64,000 nt of DNA from contig NZ_BOOO01000002.1 of the NCBI RefSeq assembly GCF_016863275.1, positions 1 to 64,000 of the forward strand, read 5' to 3'. Below, in pieces: positions 7,576 to 63,229 of this stretch (positions are counted from its first letter, which is position 1; each line of letters starts with the position of its first letter). Both the position numbers and the translations under genes were made by a program. The notes under the pieces were generated by a model. That model had not been told where the DNA came from and searched no databases. It worked only from the letters and a program-made list of their open reading frames with translations. The stretch is from Planotetraspora mira. GTDB taxonomy: Bacteria > Actinomycetota > Actinomycetes > Streptosporangiales > Streptosporangiaceae.

Positions 7576-7809
7576 TGCATGATCACGCACAGCGAAGGCG
7601 CAGGTCGGACGGCCTGTGCCTGAATCCGTGCATGATCACGCACAGCTAAGGCGCAGGTCGCACACCCCGTGACCGAACCCGTGCATGATCACGGTGAGCG
7701 GAGGCGCAGGTCACACCACGTGCGGCCGAACCTGTGCATGATCACGAACCAGAAGGGCGCAGGCCGGATGGCCTGCGCCCGAAGGTGTGCATGATCACGC
7801 GGGGGTTTT
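7576..7809. repeat. Array A: five cores with an exact 53-bp period
   Basis: TGCATGATCACG occurs at 7576, 7629, 7682, 7735 and 7788, every start exactly 53 bp from the last and all in one orientation. Within each unit a GCGCAGG(T/C)C block follows the core by about ten bases. A CCGAA-C-(T/C)G-like block precedes the next core. The remaining bases vary. The array fills the space between two convergent genes. The same unit builds arrays B (43.0-43.5 kb) and C (62.8-63.2 kb). Confidence 0.9.
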
Positions 7810-9299: not shown

Positions 9300-9604
9300 A
9301 TGTTCTTCCGTGGCGGCCGAGTCCGCCGGATCGGCGGTGGCAGTGAAATTTCGCATCGGCATGCTACGGGCAACGATCACAGCCAACCACTGACGATTGG
9401 GATGACCGGGATGAAGTATTTGGATCGATACATAAGGGGCGCCTTGGCTGTGCGTGATCATGCAGGAGGGCGTATGCACGCCTGCTTCAACGACGGCGCG
9501 TGTGCCCTGGATGTGCCTTGATCTTCGACACCTGGGGGATCGCCCCTTCCGGCGAGCCTTCCCCGGTCACCGGGGAACGCTCGCCGACAACGCGTTTCGG
9601 CGGC
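9300..9604. other. Intergenic region with one isolated repeat core and a terminator
   Basis: This 305-bp gap contains no convincing gene. A single copy of the array core in the inverse orientation, CGTGATCATGCA, lies at 9453-9464. A strong hairpin lies at 9550-9586, listed separately. The remainder near 9300-9450 is of lower GC and probably holds the promoter of the gene starting at 9299. Confidence 0.6.
9550..9586 (-). terminator. Hairpin downstream of glnA2
   Basis: CGGCGAGC (9550-9557) pairs with GCTCGCCG (9579-9586), and an inner CCCCGG-TCA-CCGGGG forms a second stem. It starts 19 bp after the glnA2 stop codon. Confidence 0.65.
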
Positions 9605-34068: not shown

Positions 34069-35589
34069 TCAGCCGGCGCGCAGCGCAAGGAAGAGGTCGA
34101 CTCGGTCGGCCATGGATGACAGGTCCTTACCGGTCAGCTCTTCGATCCGGCGGATCCGGTAACGGACAGTGTTCACGTGGACGTGCAGGCGCTCGGCGCA
34201 GCCGTTCCACGAACCCGCGCAATCCAGGAAGGTCCCCAGCGTCCGCACCAGTTCGGCCTGGTGCTCACGGTCGTAGTCGGACAGCGGCCCGAGCAGCCGG
34301 TCGGCGAAGGACCTGCGGACATCTCCTGGCACCGTCGCCAGCACGAGCGCGTGAGTGTAGATCTCGTCGCTGGTGACCACCCCCCCACCACGAGCGTCGG
34401 CCATCCGCCGCGCATGTCCCGCCTCCTCCACGCCGCCGCGTATGGCCGTGGCGCCGGTGAGCGCCCCGCTCACGCCGATGGAGACCCGGGTGCCCGGCAG
34501 GCCCGCCGCGAGCAGTTCCGTCCGAGCCCTCAGCCGCGCGGCGACGGCATCGGCCGTCTCCTCACGGAGCGGGACCAGGGACACCGCCCCGTCCGCGCCC
34601 GCGGCGGCGACCACGCGGCGGTCGAGCAGCTCCTCCAGCACCTGGCCGCCGAGTGCGGCAAGGTCCGGGCCGTCGGCGGCCCCCCGTCTCGCCGCCGTCG
34701 CCGTCACCACGGTGTACGGCTCGGCGGTGTCGATCCCGCAGGTCCGCAGGCGTGCCGACAGCTCGGACGGGTCCGCTCCCCCCGAGCAGGCGAGGGCGAC
34801 GAGCTGCTCGGCCAGTCGCCGCTCGACCCGGCGTCCCCCCTCCGCCCGGGTTCGCTCCATGGCGACGCACGAGGCCAGCTCGAAGCCGGTCTCGGCCTCG
34901 ATCTCCCCACGGCACACCAGGGCCCAGCCGGACGCGCGGTGGGAGCGGTCCACCGTGAAGATCGTGAAGACCTCCTCCCCCGGTTCCGTGACCAGCGTGG
35001 GCAGCCGGACGGCGCCGAGATACTCGCGCGCGAGCCGTACGGCATGGGCCTCGGCGAGGTCGCCGGCGACGACGGACCCGGCGGCGTTGATCACGGCGGC
35101 CGAGATGCCCAGCTCTGCCGAGGTGAGGGCGAGCAACTCGTCCAGGCCCGCCCCCTCGGCGACGGCGGCCACGATGCGGCGGCGGCGGCCGAGCGCTCCG
35201 CGCAGGTCCCGCGCCTGGGCGGCGGCCAGGCCCCTGCCCACGATCTCCATCACCGCTCCGAAGGACACCTCCACCGGCACCTTGAACAGGGGAAGTCCCC
35301 TGTCACGGCAGGCGGTCACGAGATCATCCGGAATGTGGCCGAGACGGGCGTCACCCGCGCCCAGGGCGGAGACCTCCGCTCTCACCAGGGCGTCGACGAA
35401 CCCCTGGGAGTCCGCGGGGTCCTGGCGCCACATCAGGCCGGTGAGCACGAGTTCGCCGCCGTCCAGATACCGGCCCGGATCGGGCAGGTCGGTGACGAGG
35501 GCGCCCGAGATCTCCCTGTCGAGACTCGACTCGCCCGCAAGGAGGCCGAGCCGGAGCTCTGGCATGGCGAGCAGATCCCTCAGCAGCAT
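34069..35589 (-). CDS. pucR: PucR-family transcriptional regulator
   Basis: A 506-residue regulator. The N-terminal purine-catabolism domain spans about 1-125 (MLLRDLLAMPELRLGLLAG, DPGRYLDGGELVLTGL), a middle CdaR/GGDEF-like region follows, and the C-terminal PucR HTH ends with LHVHVNTVRYRIRRIEELTGKDL. PucR proteins control purine degradation in Bacillus and relatives. The divergent gene is a molybdenum hydroxylase subunit, supporting that assignment. A CTACA-n12-TGTAG inverted repeat lies in the shared upstream region. The start is ATG at 35589. Confidence 0.92.
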   Translation of the reverse strand: MLLRDLLAMPELRLGLLAGESSLDREISGALVTDLPDPGRYLDGGELVLTGLMWRQDPADSQGFVDALVRAEVSALGAGDARLGHIPDDLVTACRDRGLPLFKVPVEVSFGAVMEIVGRGLAAAQARDLRGALGRRRRIVAAVAEGAGLDELLALTSAELGISAAVINAAGSVVAGDLAEAHAVRLAREYLGAVRLPTLVTEPGEEVFTIFTVDRSHRASGWALVCRGEIEAETGFELASCVAMERTRAEGGRRVERRLAEQLVALACSGGADPSELSARLRTCGIDTAEPYTVVTATAARRGAADGPDLAALGGQVLEELLDRRVVAAAGADGAVSLVPLREETADAVAARLRARTELLAAGLPGTRVSIGVSGALTGATAIRGGVEEAGHARRMADARGGGVVTSDEIYTHALVLATVPGDVRRSFADRLLGPLSDYDREHQAELVRTLGTFLDCAGSWNGCAERLHVHVNTVRYRIRRIEELTGKDLSSMADRVDLFLALRAG

Positions 35590-35613
35590 GCGAAACAGCG
35601 TATTTGGAGAAAC

Positions 35614-35635
35614 CTACAATCATCGTCACCTGTAG
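35614..35635. promoter_or_regulatory. Inverted repeat between pucR and the hydroxylase gene
   Basis: CTACA (35614-35618) and TGTAG (35631-35635) are separated by 12 bp, in the shared upstream region of the divergent pucR and hydroxylase genes. A possible PucR binding site. Confidence 0.4.
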
Positions 35636-35696
35636 CCCTCCGGTTTCATCTCACCGCCCCTTGGATGCGTTGACCTGGGTTGATGTACTTCCTTTT

Positions 35697-37928
35697 GTGA
35701 CCGGCATCAGGACAGGATCTCGCTCGGGAGTCGGCGAGAGCGTGCTGCGGCCCGATGGGACGCTCAAGGTGACCGGGGAGTTCGCGTACTCCTCGGACCT
35801 CTGGCTGGACGGCATGCTCTGGGGAGCGACCCTCCGCAGCCCGCATCCGTCGGCGTGGATCCGCTCCGTCGACGTGGGCCCCGCCCTGGCCATGCCGGGG
35901 GTGTTCGCGGTGCTGACCCATGAGGACGTGCCGGGCGAGAAGTTCTACGGCCTGGAGCACAAGGACCAGCCCGTGCTGGCGATCGACCAGGTCCGCTACC
36001 AGGGCGAGGCGGTGGCACTCGTCGCGGCCGACCATCCGGAGACCGCCCGCCGCGCGGCCGCGGCCATCGTCGTCGACTACGAGGTCCGGGAGGCGGTCGT
36101 CGACGCCCGCAGGGCCGCCTTCGACCCCTCCTGCCCGCCCGTCCACGCCCACGGCAATCTCGTCCGGCACCAGCCCGTCAGAGTCGGGTCGACCTTCGAC
36201 GCTCCGGTCGTCGTGACGGGCGAGTACGAGGTGGGCATGCAGGACCAGGCCTTCCTGGGCCCCGAGTCCGGTCTGGCCGTGCCCGCCGAGGACGGCGGTG
36301 TGGACCTCTACGTCGCCACCCAGTGGCTGCACGTCGACCAGGGCCAGGTCGCCCCCTGCCTCGCGCTGCCCAAGGAGAAGGTGCGCCTCTCGCTCGCCGG
36401 GGTCGGCGGCGCGTTCGGCGCCCGCGAGGACCTGTCGATGCAGATCCACGCGTCGATGCTGGCGCTCAGGACCGGAAAGCCCGTCAAGATCGTTTATGGC
36501 CGCGAGGAGTCGTTCTTCGGGCACGTGCACCGCCATCCCGCGCGGATGCGGTACGAGCACGGCGCGACGGCCGACGGCCGGCTCGTCTACGTCAGGGCCG
36601 AGATCGTCCTCGACGGCGGCGCGTACTGCTCGTCGTCTCCCGCCGTCGTCGGCAACGCCGCCTCCTTGGGGGTGGGACCGTACGAGGTCGGCAACGTCTG
36701 GATCGACGCGTACGGCGTGTACACGAACAACCCGCCCTGCGGCGCGATGCGCGGGTTCGGCGCCGTGCAGGCCTGCTACGCCTACGAATCCCAGATGGAC
36801 CGGCTGGCCGAGGCCTGCGGCCTGTCCCCCGTCGAGGTCAGGATCCGCAACGCCGTGTCGCAGGGATCGACGCTGGCCACCGGCCAGATCGTCGACACCC
36901 CCGCGCCCCTGGCCGACATGCTGAAGGAACTCGAGGCCATGCCGGTCCCTGGGGAGCCCTCGGCGGCCAGGGACCTGCGGTCGCTCCCCGGCGGCGTCGC
37001 CCAGACCACGCACGGCGAGGGCGTGCGCCGCGGCGTGGGCTACGGCGTCGGAATCAAGAACATCTGCTTCTCCGAGGGCTTCGACGACTACTCCACGGCC
37101 CGGGTGCGCGTGGAACTCCTCGGCGGTGAGCCCCACGTGCTCGTGCACACCGCGGCCGCCGAGGTGGGCCAGGGCCTCATCACGATCAAGGCGCAGATCG
37201 CCAGGACCGAGCTCGGCATCGACAAGGTCACCATCGCCCCTGCCGACACCTCCGTGGGATCGGCGGGCTCCTCGTCGGCGTCCCGGCAGTCCTACGTCAC
37301 GGGCGGCGCGGTCAAGGTCACCTGCGAAGCCGTACGGGAGCGGCTCGACCGGATGCGGGCGGGCGACCCCGGCCTGTCCCTCGAGGAGCTCCTGGAGCTG
37401 TACGGCCCGGTCGAGGAGACACGGGAGTACCGCCACCGGCCCACCACCCCGATGGACCCGCTCACCGGGCAGGGGAACTCACACGTGCAGCTCGCGCTGT
37501 GCGTCCACCGCGCCGTCGTCGACGTGGACGTGGAGCTGGGCCTGGTCAAGGTCGTCGAGCTCGCGGCCGTCCAGGACGTCGGGAGGATCCTCAACCCCCT
37601 GGCCCTCGAGGGCCAGATCCACGGCGGCACCGCACAGGGCCTCGGCCTGGCGCTCATGGAGGAGATCCAGGTCAGGGATGGCAAGGTGCTCAACCCCTCG
37701 TTCACCGACTACCTGATCCCGACCATTCTTGACATGCCCCCGATGCGCTTGTCGATCCTGGAGAACGCCGACCCGCACGCTCCCTACGGTCTGCGCGGGG
37801 CCGGCGAGCCGCCGACGTTGTCCTCGACGCCGGCGGTGGCGGCGGCCGTACGGGCGGCGACAGGGCTGGACCTCCCCCGCGTCCCGATCCGGCCGGAGGA
37901 CATCGCGCTCGTTCCCACGGCCGGCTGA
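35697..37928 (+). CDS. pucD: Xanthine dehydrogenase molybdenum-binding subunit (PucD/XdhD type)
   Basis: The large Mo-cofactor subunit of a xanthine dehydrogenase-type enzyme, 743 residues from GTG at 35697. Longer in-frame starts run through the inverted repeat at 35614 and are less likely. The first 110 residues form the aldehyde oxidase/xanthine dehydrogenase hammerhead domain (KVTGEFAYSSDLWLDGMLWG). Cofactor loops include GVGGAFGAREDL, CGAMRGFGAVQ, GSAGSSSASRQSYVTGGAV and the final LRGAGEPPTLSSTPAV, which carries the catalytic Glu. No FAD or 2Fe-2S subunit gene follows in the window, so those must be encoded elsewhere. Divergent from pucR. Confidence 0.9.
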   Translation: MTGIRTGSRSGVGESVLRPDGTLKVTGEFAYSSDLWLDGMLWGATLRSPHPSAWIRSVDVGPALAMPGVFAVLTHEDVPGEKFYGLEHKDQPVLAIDQVRYQGEAVALVAADHPETARRAAAAIVVDYEVREAVVDARRAAFDPSCPPVHAHGNLVRHQPVRVGSTFDAPVVVTGEYEVGMQDQAFLGPESGLAVPAEDGGVDLYVATQWLHVDQGQVAPCLALPKEKVRLSLAGVGGAFGAREDLSMQIHASMLALRTGKPVKIVYGREESFFGHVHRHPARMRYEHGATADGRLVYVRAEIVLDGGAYCSSSPAVVGNAASLGVGPYEVGNVWIDAYGVYTNNPPCGAMRGFGAVQACYAYESQMDRLAEACGLSPVEVRIRNAVSQGSTLATGQIVDTPAPLADMLKELEAMPVPGEPSAARDLRSLPGGVAQTTHGEGVRRGVGYGVGIKNICFSEGFDDYSTARVRVELLGGEPHVLVHTAAAEVGQGLITIKAQIARTELGIDKVTIAPADTSVGSAGSSSASRQSYVTGGAVKVTCEAVRERLDRMRAGDPGLSLEELLELYGPVEETREYRHRPTTPMDPLTGQGNSHVQLALCVHRAVVDVDVELGLVKVVELAAVQDVGRILNPLALEGQIHGGTAQGLGLALMEEIQVRDGKVLNPSFTDYLIPTILDMPPMRLSILENADPHAPYGLRGAGEPPTLSSTPAVAAAVRAATGLDLPRVPIRPEDIALVPTAG

Positions 37929-42649: not shown

Positions 42650-42967
42650 GTGGCCAGAGGAGAGAAGAGATTGAACGACGAGCCGGAAAGCCGCCTCGAG
42701 GTGAGCATCACACCGGAGGTCGAGGCGGGGCAGTACGCCGACTTCACCTCGGTCTGGCACACCCAAGATGGATTCGTCCTGGACTTCGCCGTGATCACGC
42801 GGCCGCCGGCGCTCGCCGACGATCCTCTTTCAGGGGACAGTTACGTCAGCGTGCCGACCCGGATCGTCAGCCGAGTGCGGCTCCCTCCGGCCCAGGTCTT
42901 CGAGCTGATGAAGGCCCTGGAACAGCAGCTCACCGCCTACGAGAAAGAAACCGGCCAAAAAGTCTGA
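42650..42967 (+). CDS. DUF3467 family protein
   Basis: 105 residues, GTG at 42650 preceded by GGAGGT. The sequence matches the DUF3467 family: GQYADFTSVWHTQDGFVLDFAVI, then VSVPTRIVSRVRLPPAQVFELMKALEQQLTAYEKETG. Such proteins are short, cytosolic and of unknown function. It follows the DUF305 gene by 40 bp, so it may be co-transcribed. It ends just before repeat array B. Confidence 0.87.
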   Translation: MARGEKRLNDEPESRLEVSITPEVEAGQYADFTSVWHTQDGFVLDFAVITRPPALADDPLSGDSYVSVPTRIVSRVRLPPAQVFELMKALEQQLTAYEKETGQKV

Positions 42968-43014
42968 CCCCCTCGTGCACGCGCCCCCTCTTATGCGCGT
43001 GATCCCCCCTTGTG

Positions 43015-43475
43015 CGTGATCATGCACAAGTTCGGCGACGTGCCGTGTGACCTGCCACGACACCGATCGTGATCATGCACAGGTTCGGCGATGTGCCGCG
43101 TGACCAGCACCAATACCCGGCGTGATCATGCACGGATTCGGTGAATGCCTAGCTGATCAGGCCTTTCACGATCGGTGATCATGCACACTTTCCGTCACAC
43201 GCTCCGCGACCTCGGGGTACACGCCTAGCGATCATGCACGTCTGCCACAACTGCATGATCACGCAGCGGGTCGCACCTGCTCAGGCCGTACACCCCCGAA
43301 CCCACGCATGATCACGAAGCGTGTTCGAGCACGTCAGAGGATGCACGGGCGAACCTGTGCATGATCACGCCAGGGATCGGCGCTGGTCACGGGCCATTTC
43401 ACCGAACCCGTGCATGATCACGCCGAGCATTGGTGCTGGTCACGTGGCACATCGCCGAACCTGTGCATGATCACG
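43015..43475. repeat. Array B: two opposing half-arrays with a 53-bp period
   Basis: Cores in one orientation (CGTGATCATGCA or close variants) start at 43015, 43068, 43121, 43174 and 43227. Cores in the reverse orientation (TGCATGATCACG or one change) start at 43252, 43305, 43358, 43411 and 43464. Each half has an exact 53-bp period. The two central cores, 43227-43238 and 43252-43263, are only 13 bp apart. Neighbouring conserved blocks are GAACC(T/C)G before the reverse-type core and GCG/GTGCTGGTC after it. The array lies between convergent genes and carries no coding frame. Confidence 0.9.
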
Positions 43476-43501
43476 CGGGATGGTCACGCGGGGGAAAGGG
43501 G

Positions 43502-44575
43502 TCAGGCTTGGAGTTCTTGGGTTAGGGCGGTGACGAAGGCGTCGACGTCGGCTTCTGTGGTGTCGAAGGCGCACATCCAGCGGACCTCGACCTCGCCGCC
43601 GCCGATCCGGTCGTTCCAGTTGTAGAACCGGAACCGCTTGCGCAGCCGGTCGGCCACGTCTCCCGGCAGGATCGCGAAGACCGCGTTGGCCTCCACTTCG
43701 CGCGCCACCCTGACCCCGGGGATGTCCCGTACGGCTGCCGCCAGCCGCCTGGCCATGCCGTTCGCCTGACGGGCGTTGCGCAGCCACAGGTCGCCGCCGA
43801 GCAGCGCCTCGAACTGCACGGACACGAACCGCATCTTCGAGGCGAGCTGCATGCCGGTCTTTCGCAGGTACGGCAGGCCCTTCGCGGCCGCGGGGTTGAG
43901 GACCACCACGACCTCGCCCAGCATGAGCCCGATCTTGGTGCCGCCGAAGGACAGCACGTCGACGCCCGCGTCCGTGGTCATCGCGCGGAGGGGCACGTCG
44001 AGGGCCGCCGCCGCGTTGGTGATCCGCGAGCCGTCCAGGTGGACGAACATGCCCAGCTCGTGGGCGTGGTCGCAGACGGCCTTGATCTCGGCCGGGGTGT
44101 ACAGCGTGCCGAGCTCTGTGGCGTTGGAGATCGAGACCACCCGGGGCTGGGCACGGTGCACGTCCCCGAAACCCCATGCCTGCTGGTCGATCAGGTCGGG
44201 CGTGAGCTTGCCGTCCGGGGTCGCCACCGGAAGCAGCTTCAGGCTTCCGGTGATCTCCGGGGCGCCGCCCTCGTCGGTGTTGATGTGCGCGGTGTCGGGG
44301 CAGACCACCGCCTCCCACGGGGCGCACATCGAACGCAACGAGAGCACGTTCGCGGCGGTGCCGTTGAACACCGGCAGGGCTTCGGCCTGGTCGCCGAAGT
44401 GCCGCCGGAAGATGCCCTGCAGGGCTCCGGTGTAGGCGTCGTCTCCGTAGCTGACCTGGTGCCCGCCGTTCGCCAGGGCGATGGCCTCGAGCACCTCCGG
44501 GTGCACTCCGGCGTAGTTGTCGCTGGCGAAGGTCTTGATCTCCGGCTCGTGCCGCCGCACGGCATCCGTTGTCAC
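43502..44575 (-). CDS. ltaE: Low-specificity L-threonine aldolase-type lyase
   Basis: A fold-type I PLP enzyme of 357 residues. Lys214 in LSFGGTKIGLM is the PLP lysine and Asp181 in HLDGSRI binds the ring nitrogen. It has YGDDAYTG at about 43-50 and HINTDEGGAPE at 97-107, as in threonine aldolases, which cleave threonine to glycine and acetaldehyde. GTG at 44575 is preceded by GGAGAT. It is the last gene of an operon with SDR and DUF6421 genes, separated by 33 bp. The exact substrate is not certain. Confidence 0.92.
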   Translation of the reverse strand: MTTDAVRRHEPEIKTFASDNYAGVHPEVLEAIALANGGHQVSYGDDAYTGALQGIFRRHFGDQAEALPVFNGTAANVLSLRSMCAPWEAVVCPDTAHINTDEGGAPEITGSLKLLPVATPDGKLTPDLIDQQAWGFGDVHRAQPRVVSISNATELGTLYTPAEIKAVCDHAHELGMFVHLDGSRITNAAAALDVPLRAMTTDAGVDVLSFGGTKIGLMLGEVVVVLNPAAAKGLPYLRKTGMQLASKMRFVSVQFEALLGGDLWLRNARQANGMARRLAAAVRDIPGVRVAREVEANAVFAILPGDVADRLRKRFRFYNWNDRIGGGEVEVRWMCAFDTTEADVDAFVTALTQELQA

Positions 44576-62766: not shown

Positions 62767-63229
62767 CGTGATCATGCACAGGTTCGGAGAAGTAGGCCCT
62801 GACCTGCGCAATCCCCCATCGTGATCATGCACGGATTCGGAGAAACCGGCTCCGACATGCACCGATCCCCGCCGTGATCATGCGCAAGTTCGTGAACCAC
62901 TCACCCGACCTGGGCGTACAACAGTCGTGATCATGCACGAGAAGCACGCCGGGCGTCCACGTCTCACTCGTTCATTCCCCATCAGGTACACCACAACGGC
63001 CCGGCTGCATGATCACGCATATCGAATGCGCAGGTCAGCCGGGCCGTCCACGAAGGTGCGCATGATCACGATGGGGGATCGCGCAGGTCGGGGCTTACTT
63101 GTCCGAACCTGCGCATGATCACGACCGGGGTTTGCGCAGGTCAGGGCCCACTTCTCCGAACCTGCGCATGATCACGACCGGGGTTTGGGCACGTCGGACG
63201 GGCCGGACCCGAACCTGTGCATGATCACG
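62767..63229. repeat. Array C: two opposing half-arrays with a 53-bp period
   Basis: CGTGATCATGCA-type cores start at 62767, 62820, 62873 and 62926; TGCATGATCACG/CGCATGATCACG-type cores start at 63006, 63059, 63112, 63165 and 63218. Each half has an exact 53-bp period. Orientation flips between 62937 and 63006. Conserved blocks GCGCAGGTC and CCGAACCTG recur in the right half (for example 63112 and 63165). It fills the gap between a membrane protein gene (minus) and an aminotransferase gene (plus). Confidence 0.9.

Follow-up and report, generated by a model that had tools for sequence, protein, structure and literature searches.

Phased 53-bp intergenic repeat arrays in the soil actinomycete Planotetraspora mira

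Results

The array and its surroundings

The analysed DNA, referred to here as the window, is a 64,000-nucleotide stretch of the Planotetraspora mira genome (contig NZ_BOOO01000002.1, positions 1 to 64,000). At 43015-43475, in the spacer between two convergent genes, it contains ten copies of a 12-bp core, an element which we refer to as array B. Genes were called with our own codon-usage caller, which is not a published tool. Three more places in the window carry cores, and the features are as follows.

42650-42967 (+): upstream gene (105 aa, not scanned for a family), its stop codon facing the array
42968-43014 (+): C-rich flank between the upstream stop codon and the first core
43015-43238 (+): left arm of array B, five cores reading CGTGATCATGCA at 53-bp steps (starts at 43015, 43068, 43121, 43174 and 43227)
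43239-43251 (no strand): 13-bp centre between the two arms
43252-43475 (-): right arm of array B, five cores reading CGTGATCATGCA on the minus strand, TGCATGATCACG on the plus strand, at 53-bp steps (starts at 43252, 43305, 43358, 43411 and 43464)
43502-44575 (-): convergent downstream gene (357 aa, reads like a PLP-dependent aldolase but was not scanned), its stop codon facing the array; its orthologue was used to locate the array in other species
7576-7799 (-): one-armed array of five cores at 53-bp steps
9453-9464 (+): lone exact core
62767-62937 (+): left arm (four cores) of a third array
63006-63229 (-): right arm (five cores) of the third array

The earlier note had described ten cores at an exact 53-bp period, inverted at the centre over a 13-bp gap, and this description proved correct. 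The numbers of mismatches to the core were 0, 0, 0, 1 and 2 in the left arm and 0, 1, 0, 0 and 0 in the right arm, so that 7 of the 10 cores are exact, and the steps were four times 53, once 25 and four times 53. In the window 42 matches with at most 2 mismatches were found (some of these are the same palindromic site read on both strands), against a mean of 4.52 and a maximum of 9 in 100 dinucleotide shuffles.

Number and anatomy of the arrays

In the P. mira assembly (9.03 Mb, 100 contigs; G000 below) the core occurred 539 + 524 times, 1063 in total, with at most one mismatch, whereas the word read backwards occurred 4 + 1 times. The absence of other arrays with 53-bp spacing had been put forward in the earlier note as the outcome that would overturn its reading, and such arrays turned out to be numerous. 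In 661 kb of G000 we counted 20 arrays, which extrapolates to about 270 per genome; a looser rule gave 26 clusters, but these include pairs of two-mismatch hits and lone cores. A scan of named genomes for exact core pairs gave at least 103 stretches. The 80 that were used (L009-L088) are all Planotetraspora and were chosen by their core pairs, which makes them a biased sample; the stretches of G000 and of G003 (assigned to P. kaengkrachanensis) are not biased in this way. The order Streptosporangiales, named in the earlier note, fits the Planotetraspora names.

An arm usually holds 3-6 cores, and arrays have either one arm or two facing arms. Of 132 arrays (G000 and G003 stretches and 78 named loci, leaving out L020 and L033, which come from the contig that is G003 C1), 63 had at least two cores on both sides and 69 did not. 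Steps within arms were 53 bp in 98 of 100 cases in G000 and 64 of 67 in G003 (162 of 167 together), the rest being 52 bp. In the biased named loci 271 of the 300 listed steps of 50-54 bp were 53. The centre step was most often 25 (15 of 59) and ranged from 16 to 183. In the orthologous arrays of G003 and G001 (assigned to P. thailandica) the centre step of array B is also 25, but in G002, another Planotetraspora genome, it is 44.

Interior slots of G000 and G003, selected only by their neighbours at -53 and +53 (n = 109, two related species), gave the unit CGTGATCATGC(A/G)C-N3-TTCG-N13-YGACC(T/A)G(C), with GTGATCATGC at 96-100%, TTCG at 94-100% and GACC-N-G at 79-96%. The last box is weaker and lies about 21 bp before the next core. 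The box centres are about 32 and 21 bp apart, from which we infer that every box is near one face of the helix. The outer flanks of the arrays are C-rich: CCCC was found within 25 nt in 73% of 195 array flanks against 21% of 719 control 3' flanks. L020 and L033 were not left out of this flank count.

High copy number, extragenic position, regular spacing and mixed orientation are shared with REP sequences and BIMEs, and intergenic repeats of this kind have been reported to bind protein (PMC2817692). However, the unit profile, CGTGATCATGCRC-N3-TTCG, is near-palindromic only over CRTGATCAYG and is not a 20-40 bp REP palindrome with a GTAG or CGTC tag (PMC3733652). The RAYT-type Y1 transposase (PF01797) was not found in G000, G002, G003 and G004, and G001 gave only partial or broken matches; other core-rich genera and other transposase families were not covered by this search. 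A CRISPR array, with long conserved repeats and unique spacers, does not match a 12-bp core that occurs about a thousand times, often in two facing arms; cas genes were not searched.

About a thousand copies of one 12-mer, with inverted pairs at gene ends, could also suggest a DNA-uptake or chromosome-segregation word like Neisseria DUS or KOPS, but we consider this very unlikely. Uptake words need no 53-bp step, both strands are used side by side (orientation relative to origin and terminus was not examined), and 139 of 144 cores were intergenic. In G085 (assigned to Planotetraspora sp. A-T 1434) an apparent restriction of the cores to one strand from 203 to 762 kb was an artefact of listing, as cores on both strands were found there.

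Conservation between species

Arrays were present at the same gene junction in G003 in 14 of 15 G000 arrays with both flanks matched, with units gained or lost mostly in 53-bp steps (four arrays were aligned). The other five of the 20 G000 arrays had no match in the part of G003 that was examined. In 81 orthologous units the cores were 95.8% identical, positions 12-20 70.9% and the linkers 54.4%. The register of each arm was chosen by best linker identity, which can only raise the linker figure. Linkers of different arrays agreed at 41.8% (L020 and L033 included). The linkers are thus much diverged, yet the steps hardly change, so that both core and spacing are kept. In G002, which has only 242 exact cores, array B is reduced to two cores. 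The one-armed array at 7576-7799 reads <<<<< in the window and <<<< in G003, but <>>> at the orthologous site in P. silvatica (L082, 2711-3020), where the arm has been inverted or replaced. Of the lone exact cores outside arrays (window 9453-9464; position 830 of stretch L117), the G000 one at C1:100830 may have a counterpart at G003 C1:102509, judged by position only.

These data bear on the possibility that the arrays are selfish or semi-selfish intergenic repeats (REP/BIME- or MITE-like), copied by an unidentified transposase or recombinase that reads the 12-mer, spacing and symmetry reflecting how that enzyme works. Gain and loss of 53-bp units, the one array missing at its G003 junction and the flipped array in P. 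silvatica speak for it, as do the avoidance of divergent spacers and the patchy spread described below. The absence of the Y1 transposase from four of the five Planotetraspora genomes tested, the retention of gene junctions and the resistance of the cores to change while linkers diverge speak against it; a pattern of empty orthologous sites and neutral decay of copies, as for a MITE or insertion element, was not observed (1 of 15 sites empty in G003). No exact core pair, direct or inverted, was present in 2.9 million viral contigs, and plasmid and phage records gave only chance-level matches (one plasmid and two phage records, E 0.4-0.5). A selfish origin is considered unlikely but is not excluded.

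Genomic placement

Arrays face gene 3' ends at a median of 15.5-17 nt from the stop codon and 5' ends at 81-126 nt. In the unbiased stretches 15 of 37 arrays were in convergent spacers, compared to 112 of 670 spacers over 60 bp, and 3 of 37 were in divergent spacers, compared to 187 of 670 (Fisher p 3e-4 and 4e-3). Since most arrays are shared by the two species, these p-values are too small. One-armed clusters in tandem spacers showed no orientation preference relative to the gene, 24 against 18 (p 0.44). L020 and L033 were not left out of the placement and orientation analyses, nor of the counts of steps in the named loci and of centre steps given above. Arrays occur about every 30-38 kb, with a coefficient of variation of 0.57-0.77. 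The motif GATCWT as a whole is not concentrated in arrays, as 11-12% of such sites in the 661 kb lie in CGTGATCWTGC.

RNA hairpin or cruciform

A further possibility is that the two arms act as nucleic-acid hairpins, either as a long RNA hairpin at convergent 3' ends (a bidirectional terminator or 3'-end stabiliser) or as a DNA cruciform. The spacer of array B folds as RNA to -318 kcal/mol (z -15.9, 0 of 100 shuffles as good), as a long inverted repeat would, and the arms are 80% complementary over 127 nt. Hairpin pairs of the same core are present in other genera. Matching of arms by rank did not support pairing (0.444 and 0.457 against 0.437). In the best register cross-arm linkers agreed at 0.554 (62 arrays), linkers of the same arm, which cannot pair, at 0.526 (96 arms) and linkers of arms from different arrays at 0.498. 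The cross-arm search tries more registers than the same-arm search, so that the small excess, which a hairpin role would predict, is not decisive.

Against a hairpin role, 69 of 132 arrays lack a second arm of at least two cores, there is no sense bias, and RNA pairing is not expected to need an exact 53-bp step (an inference). The only terminator-like match, 42953-42969, lies outside the array, and no match to Rfam 15 was found up to E 1 at 42900-43600. A role as structured RNA is neither established nor excluded; a hairpin or cruciform role is considered unlikely but is not excluded.

Occurrence in other lineages

Of 297 genomes of the family, 16 hold at least 17 exact cores: five Planotetraspora genomes, G085 (694 cores), G076, G115, G114, G074, G028, G077, G209, G238, G143 and G216. 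The variant with T at position 7, CGTGATCTTGCA, is expanded in G109 (248), G209 (143), G077 (100), G060 (86), G238 (49), G143 (45), G216 and G114 (29 each), and weakly in G138 (19) and a few others. Of 396 genomes drawn from the phylum only G000 and G378 (288 cores), a one-contig 3.1-Mb genome of another family, are expanded; the rest have at most 6. We refer to genomes with at least 17 exact copies of CGTGATCATGCA or CGTGATCTTGCA in these scans as core-rich; sequence around cores was read in 12 of the 20 such genomes only.

The layouts differ between lineages. G085 and G209 share the 53-bp step, although more loosely (43 of 57 steps of 51-54 bp in G085 and 29 of 35 in G209). In the stretches read, G028 has hairpin pairs 39 bp apart, G114 and G074 have pairs 29-30 bp apart, and G115 and G076 have singles and mixed pairs. 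The hairpin forms of G028 and G114 are palindromic but start with the same core. G378 has a different downstream half (ATCCCGCCACCC), variable spacing (mostly 32-59 bp) and often a second inverted repeat, CAGAATGCTGG ... CCAGCATTCTG, between facing cores (several arrays in L262-L281, for example 35409-35759 of the joined contig).

To see whether single cores form a regulon in genomes without expansion, 20 single-core loci were fetched: 15 cores are inside genes, 3 at gene edges and 2 intergenic, which gave no support for a regulon. In six of these loci (L219, L223, L229, L233, L234 and L237) the exact 12-mer encodes the same peptide, RVIMQDFTGVP, which reads like aconitase (not scanned), a coding coincidence to be masked in such scans.

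Candidate binding proteins

The conserved core with free linkers points to a protein that reads DNA. Proteins flanking arrays, and small basic proteins in the fetched stretches, were compared across genera; no shared DNA-binding gene emerged, although only a small part of each genome was sampled.

The core contains GATCAT, and some lineages use CGTGATCTTGCA instead or as well (A in Planotetraspora, T or both in lineages g55, g72 and g86). This agrees with GATC(A/T)T, the site bound genome-wide by the actinobacterial nucleoid protein Gbn (SCO1839) in Streptomyces (PMC9239103). C and G stand two bases outside GATC, which fits the reported G/C preference as we read the text. Four genomes were searched for dense GATCWT clusters. 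Conserved between G003 and G209, four GATCWT sites were found within about 140 bp in front of a 71-aa basic HTH gene, which matches Pfam HTH_58 (E 3e-33) and, by sequence, no solved structure. This fits the published description of Gbn (73 aa, pI 10.5, GATC-rich own promoter, where sites are clustered), but the gene was identified by these features and not by comparison with the SCO1839 sequence. Its promoter, with GATC sites 18-26 bp apart, is nearly identical between two genera (L302, 1144-1520, minus strand, and L303, 1450-1804), suggesting conserved autoregulation.

A Gbn-like gene was present in 20 of 20 core-rich genomes tested, but also in 12 of 13 others; in G000 it lies at C33:105181-105393. 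Its presence therefore does not explain the patchy spread, and whether it is the gbn orthologue is left undecided by these observations. Moreover, in G000 and G003 position 7 was T in 0 of 79 one-mismatch variants, although their protein is 96% identical to that of G209, where 12 of 18 variants are T. C and G at position 7 were not searched genome-wide; in the fetched stretches we counted 13 T, 3 C and 2 G, and in lineage g69 two C and no T, so that the A/T rule is not clean. Streptomyces Gbn needs only six bases and hardly changes DNA shape, it binds thousands of single GATCWT sites, and no 12-bp word, 53-bp period or array element is reported in the sections consulted. The outer core bases and the 53-bp step, which a 71-aa protein alone hardly explains, thus need another reason.

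The cores also resemble ARG boxes, the sites of the arginine repressor ArgR, and the arrays could bind or soak up ArgR or a similar metabolic regulator. Several Streptomyces ARG boxes read TGCATG-N-TCATGC, and one box, AB.SCO5864_0 CTCTCCGTGATCATGCACCC, assigned in a fragment shifted by S. coelicolor ArgR in vitro, holds the exact core (PMC5839063). However, ArgR (PF01316) gave no match in two core-rich genomes of one genus, G076 and G115, which carry 213 and 154 cores and are 90% and 93% complete, although a third genome of the genus (G138) has it; 15 of 17 core-rich genomes and 9 of 9 others have one copy. The second half-site is not kept, as positions -1 and -2 vary, and the arrays lie behind genes and avoid divergent spacers. 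The 20 single cores described above do not tell whether cores lie upstream of arginine genes, and the arg promoters of Planotetraspora were not read. ArgR as the sole factor is weakened, and we regard this explanation as very unlikely.

Discussion

The array is best explained as one of about 270 (extrapolated) intergenic DNA arrays that dock a sequence-specific chromosomal protein. In this view each arm usually consists of 3-6 binding units of 53 bp (five helical turns), so that all sites lie near one face of the DNA, and one or two arms fill the spacer just behind stop codons, most often between convergent genes. The arrays themselves, their spacing, conservation, placement and spread were demonstrated by the analysis. 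That the binder is a Gbn-type small HTH nucleoid protein, perhaps with a partner that reads the other boxes and sets the 53-bp step, is inferred, and so is the proposal that the coated arrays act as insulators or roadblocks at gene ends, limiting read-through and collision or fixing local supercoils. Expression, occupancy by Gbn or any other protein, and termination were not examined. We put the probability of this explanation at about 0.42; the recount of position 7 lowered it from 0.45 and slightly raised the two main alternatives, a selfish repeat and a hairpin.

The interpretation given in the earlier note, a binding array for a cooperative protein such as a nucleoid or partition factor, or a structured-RNA source, is supported in part. 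The reading as a DNA-binding array is well supported by the strict spacing, by cores that are kept while linkers diverge, and by the many one-armed arrays. Cooperativity was not shown. A partition factor has no support, in view of the extrapolated number of arrays per genome and the results for viral, plasmid and phage sequences. The note's statement that no element of this shape has been described agrees with our literature searches on the sequence, 53-bp tandem repeats, Planotetraspora repeats, actinobacterial intergenic repeats and Gbn or BIME arrays, which, within open-access papers (PMC11272600 among those consulted), returned no description. We regard the arrays as interspersed protein-binding repeats that differ from REP, CRISPR, MITE and ARG-box families.

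A broader possibility, which we consider unlikely at present, is a bacterial, chromosome-wide insulator system, in which a nucleoid protein family (Gbn-like or an unknown accessory factor) binds helically phased arrays placed behind genes and builds short regular chromatin-like tracts that separate convergent transcription units, using a fixed 12-bp word that several actinobacterial lineages have multiplied in different layouts. Bacterial chromatin is mostly described as irregular. Many arrays with an exact five-turn period, conserved cores and free linkers would be a rare case of genome-encoded regular protein spacing in bacteria, and would make a direct test of insulation between convergent genes possible. 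The patchy reuse of one exact 12-mer across genera and in another family also raises the question of what fixes the word, a conserved binder or a spreading element.

BIMEs and REP sequences differ from these arrays not only in the points given above but also in that the 12-mer is the same across genera and in another family. ParB-type centromere arrays such as F-plasmid sopC have tandem units of about four to five helical turns with a short conserved binding core, but are present at one site per replicon in plasmids, compared to about one array per 30-38 kb of chromosome here. In Cbp1-Cren7 chromatin on Sulfolobales CRISPR arrays a small HTH protein coats the repeats and forms a chromatin-like structure (PMC10883916); here the repeat is 12 bp, linkers evolve freely and arrays are at many loci. 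The Gbn-like HTH protein (L303, 1589-1804, plus strand) has a weak match to the archaeal Cbp1 model (30 bits, below the cut-off of 140), indicating a possible distant relation between two repeat-coating HTH families.
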